Source of the DNA: a virus
Strand: one strand, 5' to 3'
IMG/VR virus record: IMGVR_UViG_3300037070_001233
Location: 1-43,873 of that record
DNA: 43,873 nucleotides
Below, piece after piece: positions 31,218 through 43,873 of the stretch; position 1 is the first letter of the stretch, and the number at the start of each line of letters is the position of its first letter. Under the pieces are notes generated by a model. It saw only the letters and a program-made list of their open reading frames with translations. It did no database searches and was not told the DNA's origin. The translations under genes and the position numbers were made by a program.

Positions 31218-31636
31218 GGCCGGACTACGTCGGCCCCTGGGCGTGGTTGGAGCACCACTACGGACTGATCGAGGAAGGCATGCGGCAGGCCGACTGCCTG
31301 ATGGTCTGCGTAGAGCACAAGGGCCGACACCCGTTCATCGACGGAGGGTGTCACGAACTGCCGAGGCCGCTACCGAAGCGCGAGCGGGTCAGGATCGCCA
31401 ACCAGGACCGGGAGCAGGAGGCCGCTCCCGTCCGGGTGCAGTTCGACGTGGACGATATCGCCGAGGCGATCGTCAAGGCCGAGTTGTATTTAGCTTCACG
31501 TCGCCAGGAGCGCGCGCCGGCCGCACAGGCACTCCAGGGCGCCCCCGCACCTAAAACCTCTCCTGAGCCCGTGAACGGCCAGCACGAGGCTCCTGCGCCC
31601 TCGCGCCGCATCCTGGACATGGACGATCAGCCATGA
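31214..31636 (+). CDS. Hypothetical protein with acidic helix and Pro-rich tail
   Basis: A 140-residue protein from GTG 31214. The N-terminal half includes EEGMRQADCLMVCVEHKGRH and GGCHEL, with scattered Cys and His. The second half is helical (VDDIAEAIVKAELYLASRR) then Pro/Ala-rich. No family recognised. Coupled to the replication ATPase by an ATGA overlap. Confidence 0.6.
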   Translation: MRPDYVGPWAWLEHHYGLIEEGMRQADCLMVCVEHKGRHPFIDGGCHELPRPLPKRERVRIANQDREQEAAPVRVQFDVDDIAEAIVKAELYLASRRQERAPAAQALQGAPAPKTSPEPVNGQHEAPAPSRRILDMDDQP

Positions 31637-32973
31637 AGCCAAGCCAGTTCCGACGCGACGGCGACGAGTTCTTAGCGATCTGGGAGGGCGCCGGCGTCGG
31701 GATTGGTTTTAGCCGGATCAGGGAGTCGGACTCGGGGATGCTGTACGCCGAGCTTGACGTGCAGTCGATCCGCCCCGACGCGCAGGGGACGCTGCTCTCA
31801 CCGTCCCGGTTCAACCTGATGGCAGCGACCGAGCGCAAGCGGTTGGCCGAACTGCTGGCGCAGCGCGCGCCCGACGTCGTCTGGGCCGATGCGTTAGAGG
31901 CGGCGATCGGCCGGGTGATCCGGGATTGGCGCACCCCAGAGCCACTGGTCGACCTCTGGGACGTGGAAGACCCGGGCTCACTGACCTATCTGACGAAGCC
32001 GCTGCTCGTCGAGAACGACACCAACATCTGGTATGCCGACGAGCAGTCGTTGAAGTCGTATCTGGCGATGGCGACGGCGGCGTCTGTCGTCTCAGGACTG
32101 GAATTGTCCGGCATTGGCTGGCCGAGCAAGCAGGGGACGGTCCTGTACTACGACTGGGAGACGTTCGACCAGCGCCAGCGTCGGCGCCTCACCAGGGTCG
32201 TCAACGGGCTCGGGCTTCCGATGCTCCGCAACATCAAATACCGGCGGATGACGCGCCCGCTGTTGGACGTGATCGGCCTAATCCGGGCCGAGGCGAGCAG
32301 GCTAGGGGCGGTACTCGTGATCTTCGATTCGCTCGGGTTTATGTGCGGCGGCGACCTCAATAAGCCGGAAATCGCGCTACCCGTCATCAACGCCGTGGGA
32401 TCGATCCAGGGCGTTACCCGGCTGATCCTGGCGCACCACGGCAAGAGCGGCCGGCAGGACGGGGAGAAGCCCTCGGTATTCGGGTCGGCGTTCTTCGAGG
32501 CGGGATCACGCAACCGCTGGCTGATCCGAAAGGCACAGGGGGAGGAGGAATCGACGGTCAGGATCGGCCTCTACAACGACAAGACCAGCGACGATCAGCG
32601 TCACAAACCGTTGGGCCTGGCATTCAACTTTGATGCCGAGCGAGACAGCGTGATGCTCAGCCGGGCCGAGATTGAAGACGAGCCGGAGCTGATGAAGTCA
32701 GCCACGGCAGCCGCCAGAATCCGAGCCATGCTGCGCCGTGCAGCCTACGGCCGAGCCACGGTGGAGGTCATCGCAGACGAGACCGGGCTGACCGGCAACA
32801 CCGTCGCGAAAGAGCTTCGGCGAATGAAAGATACCGTCAACCTGAACAGCCCCGGAGGGGGGAAGGGAAAGAAAGGTGAGTGGGGTCTGATGGACCTCTC
32901 ACCCCAAACCCAAACCCAAACTTTGCAAACCCATACCAACGGTTCGGGTTTAGCCGATGAACTCCCATTCTGA
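31633..32973 (+). CDS. RecA-fold replication ATPase/helicase with winged-helix C-terminus
   Basis: A 446-residue protein. Residues 130-148 (TNIWYADEQSLKSYLAMAT) align with the Walker A of phage RepA/DnaB-like ATPases (YG-GxxKSxLA) but are degenerate: Lys141-Ser142 are kept and the usual glycines are replaced. Residues 170-176 hold YYDWE with a likely catalytic Glu. Residues 226-240 (AVLVIFDSLGFMCGG) are Walker B, and LILAHHGKSG near 270 is the downstream motif. Residues about 360-400 form a winged helix. The final 50 residues carry Gln-Thr repeats encoded by the origin-like DNA. Confidence 0.75.
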   Translation: MKPSQFRRDGDEFLAIWEGAGVGIGFSRIRESDSGMLYAELDVQSIRPDAQGTLLSPSRFNLMAATERKRLAELLAQRAPDVVWADALEAAIGRVIRDWRTPEPLVDLWDVEDPGSLTYLTKPLLVENDTNIWYADEQSLKSYLAMATAASVVSGLELSGIGWPSKQGTVLYYDWETFDQRQRRRLTRVVNGLGLPMLRNIKYRRMTRPLLDVIGLIRAEASRLGAVLVIFDSLGFMCGGDLNKPEIALPVINAVGSIQGVTRLILAHHGKSGRQDGEKPSVFGSAFFEAGSRNRWLIRKAQGEEESTVRIGLYNDKTSDDQRHKPLGLAFNFDAERDSVMLSRAEIEDEPELMKSATAAARIRAMLRRAAYGRATVEVIADETGLTGNTVAKELRRMKDTVNLNSPGGGKGKKGEWGLMDLSPQTQTQTLQTHTNGSGLADELPF

Positions 32974-33142
32974 TGGGCGGTTTGGGTTTGGTATGGGTTT
33001 GGGTATGGGTTTCCACCATTACACGCGCGCGCGTGTACGCTCGTGTTAAGTCCCCTACGGGGACATAGGGGAAACGAGTATCAGTTTCCCAGTATGGGTT
33101 TAGGAAGAACGGCGATGGGATTTCATGGGGGCTCCGCCCCCA
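32901..33142. other. Origin-like region: iterons, inverted repeats and palindromes
   Basis: GTATGGGTTT occurs at 32991-33000, 33003-33012 and 33092-33101, and inverted at 32927-32936. A perfect 14-bp inverted repeat links 32926-32939 and 32988-33001. An 18-bp perfect palindrome of alternating purine and pyrimidine, tacacgcgcgcgcgtgta, lies at 33020-33037. Hairpins follow at 33051-33063, 33069-33090 (gggaaac/gtttccc) and 33126-33142 (tgggggc/gccccca). The first part overlaps the end of the helicase gene; 32974-33164 has no gene. Iterons next to a replication ATPase suggest a replication origin. Confidence 0.6.
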
Positions 33143-33164
33143 CACCCCCGGAGGCGAACTGCTA

Positions 33165-33680
33165 ATGACCGTCCGCGTCCTCGTCGGCGATGCGCTCTCC
33201 GTGCTAAAGACGCTTCCGGATGCGTCAATTCAACTGTGCGTGACATCTCCGCCCTATTTCGGGCTCCGGAGCTATTCCACCGATCCGCAGATCTGGGGCG
33301 GCGACCCGGAGTGCGGGCACACGTTTATGCCGTCCGGCTCGTGCCCGTACTGCGGCGCGTGGCGCGGCGAGCTGGGCAGCGAGCCCACGCCATCCCTGTT
33401 CATCGAGCACCTCGTCTCGATCTTCGATGAGGTGTGGAGAGTTCTGCGGAAGGACGGCCTAGTTTTCTGTAACTTAGGCGATAGCTACGCTGGCTCTGGA
33501 AAGGGACCGCAAGGCTTAAGCGGCATGGGAAATCAAGACATCCGGATGGCCGGCGTGATTGACCCGAAGGGGGACAAGAGCAAGACGACCTATCCGGGGG
33601 AGTGGGAACTACGGGCCGACCTGACTGACGAAGAAGTTGCCTATGTTTTGCGGGAGTTGGCGGCGTGCAAGAGCTTGTGA
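33165..33680 (+). CDS. DNA methyltransferase, N-terminal half (motif IV)
   Basis: A 171-residue protein containing the first part of a beta-class DNA amino-methyltransferase. It has LVGDALSVLKTLPDASIQLC followed by the catalytic SPPY motif (residues 28-31, in VTSPPYFGLR), a Cys/His zinc-like insert (CGHTF, CPYCG) and VWRVLRKDGLVFCNLGDSYA. It breaks off after VAYVLRELAACKSL. The SAM-binding DPFLGSGTT motif is in the separate gene at 34726. A TSPPY motif fits N4-cytosine or some N6-adenine enzymes. Its 3' end overlaps the HNH gene on the other strand by 40 bp. Confidence 0.85.
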   Translation: MTVRVLVGDALSVLKTLPDASIQLCVTSPPYFGLRSYSTDPQIWGGDPECGHTFMPSGSCPYCGAWRGELGSEPTPSLFIEHLVSIFDEVWRVLRKDGLVFCNLGDSYAGSGKGPQGLSGMGNQDIRMAGVIDPKGDKSKTTYPGEWELRADLTDEEVAYVLRELAACKSL

Positions 33681-34183
33681 CACGAGCGGCAGAGCGCCAT
33701 CAGGTTCTCGGGGGCGTGGTTCGTCTTCGTGAAGTCCCGATGGTGCAGATCGAGCGGGTAGTCGGGTCGGGCGTCGCACCGTTCGCAGGTGCCCTCAGCA
33801 CGGGCGCGGATCTTCTGACGGTAGCCGCGGCCCCAACCGGGCGCGTATCCCGTCGTTCGGTTCTTGCCCTGATAGTTCGGGTTGTTTTCGCCGGCCAGCG
33901 ATTCGGCAATCTGCATGAGCCAGTCTCGATTCTCGGCCTGAGCAAGGCCACGGATGCGGGCTTCCTCGCGCATCTCGGATGTCCACGCGGCGCGGGCTTT
34001 AGCGCCATGCTCCGGACGCTTCCGCCCCTGAAGTTTCGGCTTAGGCACGCCCTGCTGGCGTCGGCTCATAGCCGCGCGCCATTCGGGGGTACGGATGTAG
34101 GGCAGCGTATGCGCTCGGCAGAATGTCGCGGTAGGGGCGCAGGGCGCCCCACACTGCGAGCACGGGTGCTTCGGACTTGGCAT
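33641..34183 (-). CDS. HNH endonuclease inside the methyltransferase locus
   Basis: A 180-residue reverse-strand protein from ATG 34183, with gagggg 7 nt upstream. The N-terminus is a zinc-ribbon (CSQCGAPCAPTATFC). The C-terminus is a complete HNH domain: CERCDARPDYPLDLHHRDFT, then NLMALCRSCHKLLH, with HH, N and H residues plus two CxxC pairs. Residues after KLLH (AANSRKT) are read from methyltransferase DNA, so the insertion junction is near 33663. A homing-type mobile gene that carried the flanking genes with it is the likely explanation. Confidence 0.85.
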   Translation of the reverse strand: MPSPKHPCSQCGAPCAPTATFCRAHTLPYIRTPEWRAAMSRRQQGVPKPKLQGRKRPEHGAKARAAWTSEMREEARIRGLAQAENRDWLMQIAESLAGENNPNYQGKNRTTGYAPGWGRGYRQKIRARAEGTCERCDARPDYPLDLHHRDFTKTNHAPENLMALCRSCHKLLHAANSRKT

Positions 34184-34186
34184 GGT

Positions 34187-34456
34187 TCAGCCCCTCAGCC
34201 GGGGCGTGGCACGGTAAAAGAGGCCGTCTCGATCCTTGCCGCGCGAGAGGACGCCTCGTCGGGCCATCTGACCAATCTTTCGCCGTACCGCTGCGATGGT
34301 CGGGTCGGGATCGTACATCGCGGATTCGGGGCGTGTGGCGTCATACAGGCGAAACCCAACATCACGGGCGCGGATACCGCAGTTTTCCCGTCCGTAGGAT
34401 GCCCGAGACTCGGCTTGGATCGCGGCAATGATGTCGGCATCCGAGTACGTCGCCAT
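34187..34456 (-). CDS. Small winged-helix-like protein in the HNH cassette
   Basis: An 89-residue protein from ATG 34456. It has DADIIAAIQAESRASYGREN, then a helix (TIAAVRRKIGQMARRGVLSR) and a strand (GLFYRATPR), the order of a winged-helix DNA-binding domain with Arg-rich recognition region. It overlaps or abuts both cassette neighbours. A regulator of the cassette is possible. Confidence 0.6.
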   Translation of the reverse strand: MATYSDADIIAAIQAESRASYGRENCGIRARDVGFRLYDATRPESAMYDPDPTIAAVRRKIGQMARRGVLSRGKDRDGLFYRATPRLRG

Positions 34457-34708
34457 CTAGCTACCCTCGTATTCGGTCAGCAGGCGGTCGGCGATCTCGG
34501 CAGCGGCGCACGAGACGGCCTCGTCATGCGAGCCGTGCTGGTGGTGGCACGTCGCGACGGCCGGCACGATTGCCGACCCGTCCTTGACCGCGCCGCAGGA
34601 CGCGGGATAGTGGCAGATGTTCTGGAGGCTGGCGATGATCCGTCGTTCTGTCGGCTGCTGCGGTGCTCGTCGGCTGGCGGTGTTCACGGTAGGTACTCCG
34701 TACTTCAA
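34457..34708 (-). CDS. First gene of the HNH cassette, small hypothetical protein
   Basis: Reverse-strand frame of 83 codons from TTG 34708, or 76 from GTG 34687. The C-terminal part (CHHQHGSHDEAVSCAAAEIA) is His/Cys-rich and helical. The promoter at 34718-34746 would start transcription at about 34711, so the TTG version would be almost leaderless and the GTG version would have a short leader. No family recognised. Confidence 0.5.
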   Translation of the reverse strand: MKYGVPTVNTASRRAPQQPTERRIIASLQNICHYPASCGAVKDGSAIVPAVATCHHQHGSHDEAVSCAAAEIADRLLTEYEGS

Positions 34709-34717
34709 TCTAGGGGC

Positions 34718-34746
34718 ATTGTAGCATGAAACTCCGACTTGGTCAA
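34718..34746 (-). promoter_or_regulatory. Reverse-strand sigma-70 promoter of the HNH cassette
   Basis: On the reverse strand TTGACC (34741-34746) is followed after 17 bp by TACAAT (34718-34723). Both boxes are close to consensus with ideal spacing. It lies inside the first codons of the C-terminal methyltransferase gene (start 34726), so transcription of the cassette and translation of that gene use the same DNA. Confidence 0.6.
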
Positions 34747-35703
34747 GAGGAAATCCCGCCGCATTTGAAGCGGTTTTTCAAGCCCGTGGGAGGACTGAAG
34801 CAGAAGAACCTCATGCTCGTGCCCCAGCGGTTCGCCATCGCCATGCAGGAGCGCGGGTGGATCGTCCGCTCGGAAATCGTCTGGGCCAAGACCTCGGCCA
34901 TGCCGGAGAGCGTCCGAGATCGTCCGACCTCGGCATGGGAGCCCATCTGGATGTTCAGCAAGAGCCAGCGGTATTTTTACGATGGGGATGCGGTGCGGCA
35001 GCCTCACGTGGCCCCCGAGCGGCAAGGCAAACCTAATACGGGATGGGACTATGGGGAGAATCGACGGAAGATTGGGGAGCCGTCTAACTCTAAGCACGTC
35101 CTTGAGTACCACCCAGCCGGCGCCTCGCTCCGTAACGTCTGGACGCTCGGGCCTGAGCCGTCCTCGCTGGAGCACTACGCAGGATTTGTGACCGCCATCC
35201 CGCGCCGCTGCATCCTGGCCGGCACCAGCGAGAAGGGCGCGTGCCCGGCGTGCGGGGCACCGTGGGTGCGGGTGGTGGAGCGGGGGGTCAGTCGGTACAG
35301 CGAGGTCATGAACGGTCGCTCGTGGCGCGATGTGGATGACGACGCCTATGAGCGCGGCATCGTGCCCCGGCGTGGTGAGGGTGGGCATACGCGGCTACCC
35401 GGATCGAAGGGAGCCGGCGATTTGACACCGAAGGGGGGCGGGACTCTCGGCTGGGCACCTTCCTGCTCCTGTCCTCCGGCCTCGCCGATTCCTCAGACGG
35501 TCCTCGACCCATTCCTGGGCTCGGGCACAACCGCGATGGTCGCGGATCGACTCGGACGGGACGCCATCGGCATCGAGCTGAACGCCGAGTACGCCGAGAT
35601 GGCGCGCAAGCGGATCGAGCAGGACGCCGGCAATCTCTTTGGCGATCCCGTCTCCGTCGAAGCGCCGGCACAGCTCGACCTGTTCGGGGAGGTGGCCGGA
35701 TGA
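34726..35703 (+). CDS. DNA methyltransferase, C-terminal half (motif I)
   Basis: A 325-residue protein from ATG 34726, with aggggc about 10 nt upstream. It contains EEIPPHLKRFFKPVGGLKQK, then LMLVPQRFAIAMQERGWIVR and SAMPESVRDRPTSAWEPIWM, typical of the target-recognition side of beta-class methyltransferases. Residues 261-269 are the SAM-binding motif DPFLGSGTT, then GIELNAEYAEMARKR. A zinc-like CPAC (173-176) pairs with CSC (247-249). Together with the gene at 33165 it makes one complete enzyme in two parts. Whether the halves assemble is unknown. Confidence 0.85.
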   Translation: MKLRLGQEEIPPHLKRFFKPVGGLKQKNLMLVPQRFAIAMQERGWIVRSEIVWAKTSAMPESVRDRPTSAWEPIWMFSKSQRYFYDGDAVRQPHVAPERQGKPNTGWDYGENRRKIGEPSNSKHVLEYHPAGASLRNVWTLGPEPSSLEHYAGFVTAIPRRCILAGTSEKGACPACGAPWVRVVERGVSRYSEVMNGRSWRDVDDDAYERGIVPRRGEGGHTRLPGSKGAGDLTPKGGGTLGWAPSCSCPPASPIPQTVLDPFLGSGTTAMVADRLGRDAIGIELNAEYAEMARKRIEQDAGNLFGDPVSVEAPAQLDLFGEVAG

Positions 35704-36077
35704 CCGCAGATGCCCCAAAACGCGCGCTCAAGGGGGCCAGGAGCGATTTTCCTACGCAAGTGGACTCTAGAGCCATCCCGGCATTTCGGGAGACGGAGAA
35801 GTCGTTTATGGCGTCCGTCGTCAAGTACGCCAATCTCATGGGCTGGCGGCACTACCACACCCACCGCTCCGAGAAGTCGCCGGCCGGCTTTCCGGACCTC
35901 GTCCTCGTCCGTGCCCGGCACCCGAAACCTCGCGTCGTCTTCGCCGAGCTCAAGGCCCAACGTACCCCGGTGACCGACGATCAGCGCGAGTGGATCGCCG
36001 ACCTCCGAGCGTGCGGCCAGGAAGCCTACATCTGGCGCCCGTCCATGTGGCAGGCCGTCGAGAGGATTCTTCGATGA
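35700..36077 (+). CDS. VRR-NUC domain nuclease
   Basis: A 125-residue protein at an ATGA overlap. Residues 30-110 match the VRR-NUC fold, a PD-(D/E)xK type resolvase-like nuclease: TEKSFMASVVKYANLMGWRH, then SPAGFPDLVLV (Asp), VVFAELKAQRTPVTDDQREW (ExK) and YIWRPSMWQ. All catalytic residues (D, E-x-K, Q) are visible. Such nucleases in phages process recombination or replication intermediates. It is the last gene before the 7-deazaguanine genes. Confidence 0.88.
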   Translation: MTADAPKRALKGARSDFPTQVDSRAIPAFRETEKSFMASVVKYANLMGWRHYHTHRSEKSPAGFPDLVLVRARHPKPRVVFAELKAQRTPVTDDQREWIADLRACGQEAYIWRPSMWQAVERILR

Positions 36078-36568
36078 TCGCACTCTCTGGCTACATCCTC
36101 TGCATCGTCGCAGCCAACGCCACGCTAGCGCTGGTCGGACTGGTGCCGGTCGGCTTCGGCCTGATGGCCCCCGCTGGCGTCCTCTGGGCGGGACTCGCGC
36201 TCACGATGCGTGATCTGACTCAAGATCAACTCGGCAAGCGCGCGGTCCTGTTCGCGGTCGCGGCCGGTGCTGGCCTGTCGTGGCTGATCTCGCCAGCGTT
36301 CGCCCTGGCATCGGGCGCCGCGTTCCTCGTTAGCGAGCTGGCCGACTTCGCGGTCTATTCCCCGATTCGTCGGCGCCACTGGCTGACCGCTGTGGCCCTG
36401 TCCAACACGGTCGGGTTGCTGGTGGATTCAGTCCTGTTCCTCTGGTTCGCCTTCGGGAGCCTGGAGTTCCTGGCCGGGTTGGTGGTCGGGAAGGTGTGGG
36501 TCACGGCGGCGACGGTTGCGGTGCTGTGGATCGTTCGCAGCCGACGAGTCGAGGTGGTGACGGCATGA
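36074..36568 (+). CDS. VUT/YhhQ-family transporter, probable 7-deazaguanine precursor importer
   Basis: A 164-residue integral membrane protein from ATG 36074. It has at least five hydrophobic segments, such as YILCIVAANATLALVGLVPV, GAGLSWLISPAFALASGAAF and LAGLVVGKVWVTAATVAVLW. The motif ALTMRDLTQDQLGKR followed by SELADFAVYSPIRRRHW and ALSNTVGLLVDSVLFL is characteristic of the VUT/YhhQ family. Family members take up queuosine precursors such as preQ0 or preQ1. Placement next to QueF-like and DpdA-like genes supports import of a base for DNA modification. Confidence 0.85.
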   Translation: MIALSGYILCIVAANATLALVGLVPVGFGLMAPAGVLWAGLALTMRDLTQDQLGKRAVLFAVAAGAGLSWLISPAFALASGAAFLVSELADFAVYSPIRRRHWLTAVALSNTVGLLVDSVLFLWFAFGSLEFLAGLVVGKVWVTAATVAVLWIVRSRRVEVVTA

Positions 36569-43725: not shown

Positions 43726-43873
43726 ATGGGCCGTGTCTACAGTGTGCCGATCCAGCTTACTGCCGTGACGACACAGGTTGATCTCTGGGACATCGCCCCG
43801 GCCGACGATAAGCCCGTCAAGCTGCATGCCGTCTACCTGGGCCAGAGCACCGAGCTTGGCGACGCCGCCGAGG
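43726..43873 (+). CDS. Start of the structural-type gene that continues at base 1
   Basis: ATG 43726 begins MGRVYSVPIQLTAVTTQVDL and continues through the terminal overlap to the stop at 460 on the closed map, giving 159 residues. It follows the LamG gene by 4 bp with gggagg at 43713-43718 upstream. See the entry at 1-460. Confidence 0.85.
   Translation, partial: MGRVYSVPIQLTAVTTQVDLWDIAPADDKPVKLHAVYLGQSTELGDAAE
43748..43873. repeat. Terminal direct repeat, right copy
   Basis: Exact copy of bases 3-128. It shows that the sequence wraps around, so the unique genome length is about 43,745-43,747 bp. See the left copy. Confidence 0.95.

Follow-up and report, generated by a model that had tools for sequence, protein, structure and literature searches.

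An iteron cluster at the stop codon of a RepA-like helicase gene as the probable replication origin of a phage

Where does a phage begin to replicate its genome, and can that place be recognised when the letters of its repeats are found in no other phage? This question is raised by the IMG/VR record IMGVR_UViG_3300037070_001233, the whole of which (43,873 nucleotides, hereafter the window) was analysed, and in which a dense group of repeats lies across the 3′ end of a gene for a RepA-like helicase. The region 32,900-33,145 is probably the replication origin of this phage, as judged from its position and from its co-variation with the helicase gene. The two ends of the window share 126 bp (3-128 and 43748-43873), and the junction is covered without a break by another assembly (IMG/VR 3300037071_001344); therefore, the phage genome map is circular, with about 43.7 kb. 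The virus record itself is classed as linear despite this map. Terminase, portal, and laminin-like genes are located at 38.2-43.7 kb.

The repeat cluster and the helicase gene

The features of the locus are as follows.

31633..32973, + strand: RepA-like AAA_25 helicase of 446 aa (PF13481, E 5.8e-18), the proposed initiator
32871..33110, no strand: GC minimum over 240 bp (52.5%) and candidate unwinding region
32903..32921, - strand: CCCAAA array (3.2 units; GGGTTT when read on the - strand) within the 3′ end of the helicase gene
32926..32939, - strand: inverted iteron copy CAAACCCATACCAA, perfect partner of 32988-33001
32979..33012, + strand: G-rich array GGTTTGGGTTTGGTATGGGTTTGGGTATGGGTTT containing GTATGGGTTT twice (32991-33000 and 33003-33012)
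33020..33037, no strand: perfect 18-bp palindrome TACACGCGCGCGCGTGTA
33050..33064, no strand: hairpin GTCCCC-TAC-GGGGAC, in a position like that of the short-loop hairpins of relatives
33069..33090, no strand: hairpin GGGAAAC-8 nt-GTTTCCC
33092..33101, + strand: third direct GTATGGGTTT iteron
33126..33142, no strand: GC-rich hairpin TGGGGGC-TCC-GCCCCCA that marks the downstream limit, lacking a T-run and not called a terminator

The repeats, the palindrome, and the three hairpins described in an earlier sequence-only reading are all present where it had placed them. The iteron GTATGGGTTT occurs in three direct copies (starting at 32991, 33003, and 33092 on the + strand) and one inverted copy (32927), with no further copy in the window, and a perfect 14-bp inverted repeat has its arms at 32926-32939 and 32988-33001. 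In addition to the elements of that reading, two hexamer arrays face each other and bracket the helicase stop, CCCAAA (3.2 units) against GGTTTG/GGTATG (5.8 units); 3′ of these arrays are found, in this order, the palindrome, two hairpins, another iteron, and the GC-rich hairpin. Because the stop codon is at 32971-32973, the CCCAAA array and the inverted iteron copy are coding (SPQTQTQTLQTHTN).

Within the genome this cluster is exceptional. Its repeat score ranks first among 1,743 genome windows (99, against a mean of 16 and a standard deviation of 9), and a 10-mer with four copies was obtained in 4 of 5,000 dinucleotide shuffles and is absent from all other 242-bp stretches of the genome. 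Four copies of one short motif are thus present in a compact region, iteron-type arrays being defined by at least three copies beyond chance. The 240-bp GC minimum of the genome also falls here (52.5% against 65.0%), although for an unwinding region this is still 52.5% GC. Folded as single-strand DNA, the cluster is more stable than its shuffles (z = -5.1, in a fold that includes the coding arm). The 18-bp palindrome is weak by itself, since the genome has two others of that size. A switch in GC skew, which had been proposed earlier as a check, was not found at 33 kb, and the detrended extremes are at 12.3 and 37.9 kb; GC skew is an aid to locating an origin rather than its definition where most phage genes share one strand. 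A search of Rfam gave no family for the region, its sole match being a chance microRNA below threshold.

The helicase has been characterised by several comparisons. A profile built from ten family members has RSF1010 RepA as its best PDB match (1g8y, E 8e-7), and the C-terminal 70 residues of the family profile match winged-helix regulators (region 348-420). The AlphaFold2 model (mean pLDDT 77.5) has a RecA-fold core, three helices (359-401) and a short strand within residues 359-419, and values below 50 pLDDT at residues 427-446. A C-terminal winged helix is predicted from the model at about residues 359-419, and residues 427-446 would be a disordered tail encoded by the repeats. A fold search with the same model confirmed this core, returning RecA-fold ATPases in general and nothing narrower. 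Matches to Zalpha domains in the PDB were considered as support for Z-DNA and dropped, since many unrelated winged helices score similarly. Past the WGL motif, three homologues (L081, L082, and L084) have just a few more residues, and the helicase of the window extends about 26 residues beyond their ends, DLSPQTQTQTLQTHTNGSGLADELPF, coded across the repeats; this extension agrees with the earlier suggestion that the repeats have shaped the coding end.

Among the AAA_25 motifs, D232, S233, and H268 are invariant, and Walker A (residues 135-142; 32032-32058) has Leu where Gly is conserved, reading ADEQSLKS against ADGGSGKS in the nearest homologue, L081. With this altered motif, the protein may or may not still hydrolyse ATP. 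Its C-terminus GLADELPF (32947-32970) resembles the SSB tail DDDIPF, and acidic-PF ends are also present in a few homologues (DLDDLPF, KADEPF, NDEPPF, and PDEPPF, among L098, L104, L133, and L148); such an end may bind SSB-partner proteins. The closest full-length relative of the helicase (37% identity) belongs to a genome that shares its phylum with a SAR202 Chloroflexi genome. In IMG/VR, the only close relative, at 100% identity, was on another contig of the same phage, and a pattern scan of phages, plasmids, and GTDB contigs found none.

Several genes follow the cluster. An N6/N4 DNA methyltransferase is split over 33165-35703, with 33165-33680 matching positions 122-202 of phrog_67 and 34726-35703 matching positions 203-356. 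Between the halves, and overlapping their ends, there is an unrelated ORF of 354 aa (33665-34729) with no family match. A VRR-NUC nuclease gene (35700-36077, E 1.4e-8) possibly codes for a Holliday-junction resolvase. Another gene (35990-36568) belongs to the Vut_1 family of putative vitamin uptake transporters (PF02592, E 3.7e-10). This family includes queuosine-precursor transporters, and the phage may therefore scavenge precursors used in modifying DNA or tRNA.

Position of the repeats in relatives of the helicase

An element read by the helicase would be expected to keep its place at the gene while its letters drift. This prediction was tested with homologues from bacterial genomes of two phyla and from viral contigs, 48 of which were non-redundant and had downstream sequence. 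The mean repeat z at the helicase stop of these 48 was 3.7 (windows from -150) or 4.3 (windows from 0), against values between -0.5 and 0.4 elsewhere from -3000 to +3000 around the stop. The top repeat window of the whole locus was at the stop in 17 of the 48 cases, 0.95 being expected (binomial p 2e-17, which assumes independent loci, the tree showing partial dependence), and a z of at least 3 was found at 15/48 helicase stops in contrast to 5/391 stops of other long ORFs. On the tree the trait is grouped (9 changes against 14.7 in shuffles), still appearing on several supported branches. The letters of the repeats differ in each relative (GACGCATGCGTC, AACTTACAGG, TCCGGACAAGTGTCCG, GGTTACGGG, and others), and the exact letters of the window were found outside it only in the same phage. 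Conservation of the repeats in relatives, an earlier proposed check, is thus borne out for position and fails for sequence. A strong cluster is missing at the stop in about 30 of the 48 homologues, mostly where the next gene starts at once; therefore, the helicase has no need of a cluster there.

Hairpins show a similar preference. Of 54 stop regions, 28 have perfect hairpins, as do 17% of the control windows, which makes such hairpins three times commoner at the stops. A C(TAAA/TTTA)G loop was found in 7 of the 54 regions (0.22 expected), an enrichment that is a lead, the motif having been picked after inspection. The loop of the corresponding hairpin in the window is TAC, unlike this motif.

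Cultured phages provide a second line of comparison. The first six, all from Firmicutes, were judged by eye; fifteen more cultured relatives were retrieved after the score had been fixed and were analysed with the same score. The positives of this second sample are five Firmicutes phages, one streptococcal satellite, and one spring-water phage (rank 0 for Javan377, Javan539, Javan629, EFC-1, the satellite Javan319, and MW202867; rank 1 for Castelnaud). With the same score the cluster was missing in four actinophages, in one Pseudomonas, one Caulobacter, and one Vibrio phage, and in the spring-water phage MW202455 of that sample. The stop-codon cluster is a trait of some branches; many relatives are devoid of it, among them actinophages and marine clades. 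MW202867 has a gene order close to that of the window, namely repA, repeats, two small ORFs, methyltransferase, and terminase. The AAA_25 primase-helicase ("repA") phages of Streptococcus, Enterococcus, Bacillus, Paenibacillus, and Faecalibacterium resemble the window in their AAA_25 domain (checked in five) and in having repeats of both orientations across the stop, followed by hairpins; they differ in a fused primase domain (PriCT_2), in mostly AT-richer repeats of other sequence, and in a helicase with about 24% identity. In the streptococcal satellite phage Javan319 (L182, 5167-5430), the 700-bp gap after a stand-alone RepA helicase gene contains a dense cluster of TGTAAA/TTTACA repeats, which is likely the origin of the satellite.

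A positive control was available in phage Sfi21 (NC_000872), whose record annotates an origin of replication at 34487-34784, overlapping the end of the primase gene. The same locus gave a z of 18.8 and rank 0 of 466, with the top window 16 bp upstream of the stop codon. According to the Sfi21 work as cited in PMC6356513, this element is an independent origin activated by infection. The central claim of the sequence-only reading, an iteron cluster linked to a replication ATPase, is therefore strengthened on two sides, by a position kept in distant relatives and by an annotated origin in the same place in Sfi21.

Other explanations for the cluster

The repeats might instead be operators, through which the helicase or another regulator controls transcription of the methyltransferase genes that follow or sets its own copy number, with no replication start at all. 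Winged helices that bind repeats, such as those matched by the family profile, are often repressors, and a methyltransferase gene begins at 33165. However, no sigma-70-like promoter match was found in 32500-33700, relatives keep the cluster at the helicase stop although the gene that comes next varies (resolvase, methyltransferase, or unknown), and the Sfi21 element at the equivalent place is annotated as an origin. An operator function is accordingly unlikely. Less likely still is that the hairpins form a transcription terminator or another structure of the mRNA end, the repeats being incidental. Three hairpins do follow the stop codon, and the replication gene of pRN1 also has a terminator hairpin directly after it (PMC4234260); on the other hand, no terminator-like site with a T-run was found at the cluster, the gap folded as RNA is just weakly better than shuffles (z -1.8, against -5.1 for the DNA fold with the coding arm), and repeats on both strands that extend into the coding end would be left unexplained.

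A packaging (cos/pac) or recombination site is highly improbable: such sites likewise contain repeats and palindromes, and the terminase gene is 5.2 kb downstream, but an AAA_25 helicase is absent from most of the relatives identified by their terminase, and the clusters follow the helicase gene. Terminase-based relatives were for this reason unusable as a test set, their two strongest matches looking DnaB-like. Equally improbable is that the function resides in a G-quadruplex or Z-DNA structure with the repeats as a by-product. The array does have four GGG tracts, and a CG-alternating palindrome comes after it, but clusters that are neither G-rich nor CG-alternating (AACTTACAGG, AATGCTAA, TGTAAA) are present in relatives, and what is common to all is repetition in both orientations; the Z-DNA or cruciform suggestion of the earlier reading has no counterpart in relatives.

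Downstream origins and a possible mechanism

The origin reading has parallels in several known systems. In SaPIs, the C-terminal domain of Rep reads iterons directly 3′ of its own gene (Ubeda et al., 2007, as cited in PMC7581432), and the same downstream-origin layout, with a C-terminal DNA-binding domain, exists in Cch2 of SCCmec (PMC7581432). The window shares with SaPI Rep an initiator helicase (here proposed), a C-terminal DNA-binding domain (here predicted), and short iterons directly downstream; it differs in that the repeats also enter the coding end, and in that binding is known for SaPI Rep whereas here we infer it. SaPI Rep is not known to belong to the AAA_25 helicases of the RecA fold. 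The archaeal plasmid pRN1 requires a stem-loop of variable sequence that comes immediately after its replication gene (PMC4234260). Its ORF904 resembles the helicase of the window in the C-terminal winged helix (here predicted) and in having a structure immediately beyond the 3′ end of its gene, which is essential in pRN1 and there varies in its letters while its shape is kept (PMC4234260); on the other hand, it joins Prim-Pol and SF3 helicase in one protein, and its large stem-loop is without iterons. The 302-bp origin of Sfi21 (Foley et al., 1998, as cited in PMC6356513) likewise consists of noncoding repeats that start in the primase 3′ end and form the top repeat window of the locus. Unlike the window, the Sfi21 gene codes for a Pox_D5/DUF5906 helicase and Prim-Pol is in a separate gene; the helicase being of the D5 type, the layout spans helicase families.

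Another candidate was RSF1010, whose RepA is the closest solved relative (1g8y) and whose origin combines iterons with short ssi stem-loops. In this plasmid, however, the iterons are bound by a distinct protein, RepC, and the hairpins are read by a distinct primase. The scan of early-region genes recognised neither a separate RepC nor a primase, and the assignment to an RSF1010-type oriV was rejected. Downstream origins are recognised by repeats or a stem-loop that set in at the stop codon of the helicase gene, which are found here, and by a C-terminal winged helix in the helicase, which is here predicted. On the best reading, the origin would be bound by the helicase itself and would work like those downstream of SaPI Rep, Cch2, and ORF904, the helicase here having the SF4/RecA fold. 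A search of the open-access literature found no paper describing this layout for AAA_25 helicases, although one may still exist.

We infer origin activity, binding of the helicase to the repeats, a role for the hairpins, and the mode of replication. By means of its C-terminal winged helix, the helicase would bind the GGGTTT/GTATGGGTTT repeats of either orientation, both before and after its own stop codon, and would oligomerise on them. The AT-richer local DNA with the large inverted repeat would open, and the RecA-fold ring would load and then unwind. The downstream hairpins may emerge as single-strand structures for loading or priming; priming by the host is assumed because none of the genes scanned was recognised as a primase. 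It is further proposed, tentatively and as a possibility, that this is a case of one-protein self-initiation in uncultured phages, in which an SF4/RecA-fold RepA-like helicase with a winged helix would be its own origin-binding initiator, lineage-private repeats would be re-invented at the 3′ end of its gene, and an adjacent short-loop hairpin, often with C(TAAA/TTTA)G, would be the single-strand loading or priming site. Counter-evidence to the origin reading comes from the literature, in that RSF1010 RepA, the nearest solved relative, leaves origin recognition to RepC (PMC4234260); the missing skew switch, the relatives devoid of a cluster, and the altered Walker A of the helicase count against it as well.

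If the origin reading is true, the origins of many uncultured phages would be readable from the genome, at the stop codon of the AAA_25 helicase, and the helicase rule of SaPI, SCCmec, and pRN1 would be extended to another helicase superfamily. It would also provide a natural set of initiator/iteron pairs, matched yet unrelated, that would be useful for learning how winged-helix specificity changes.
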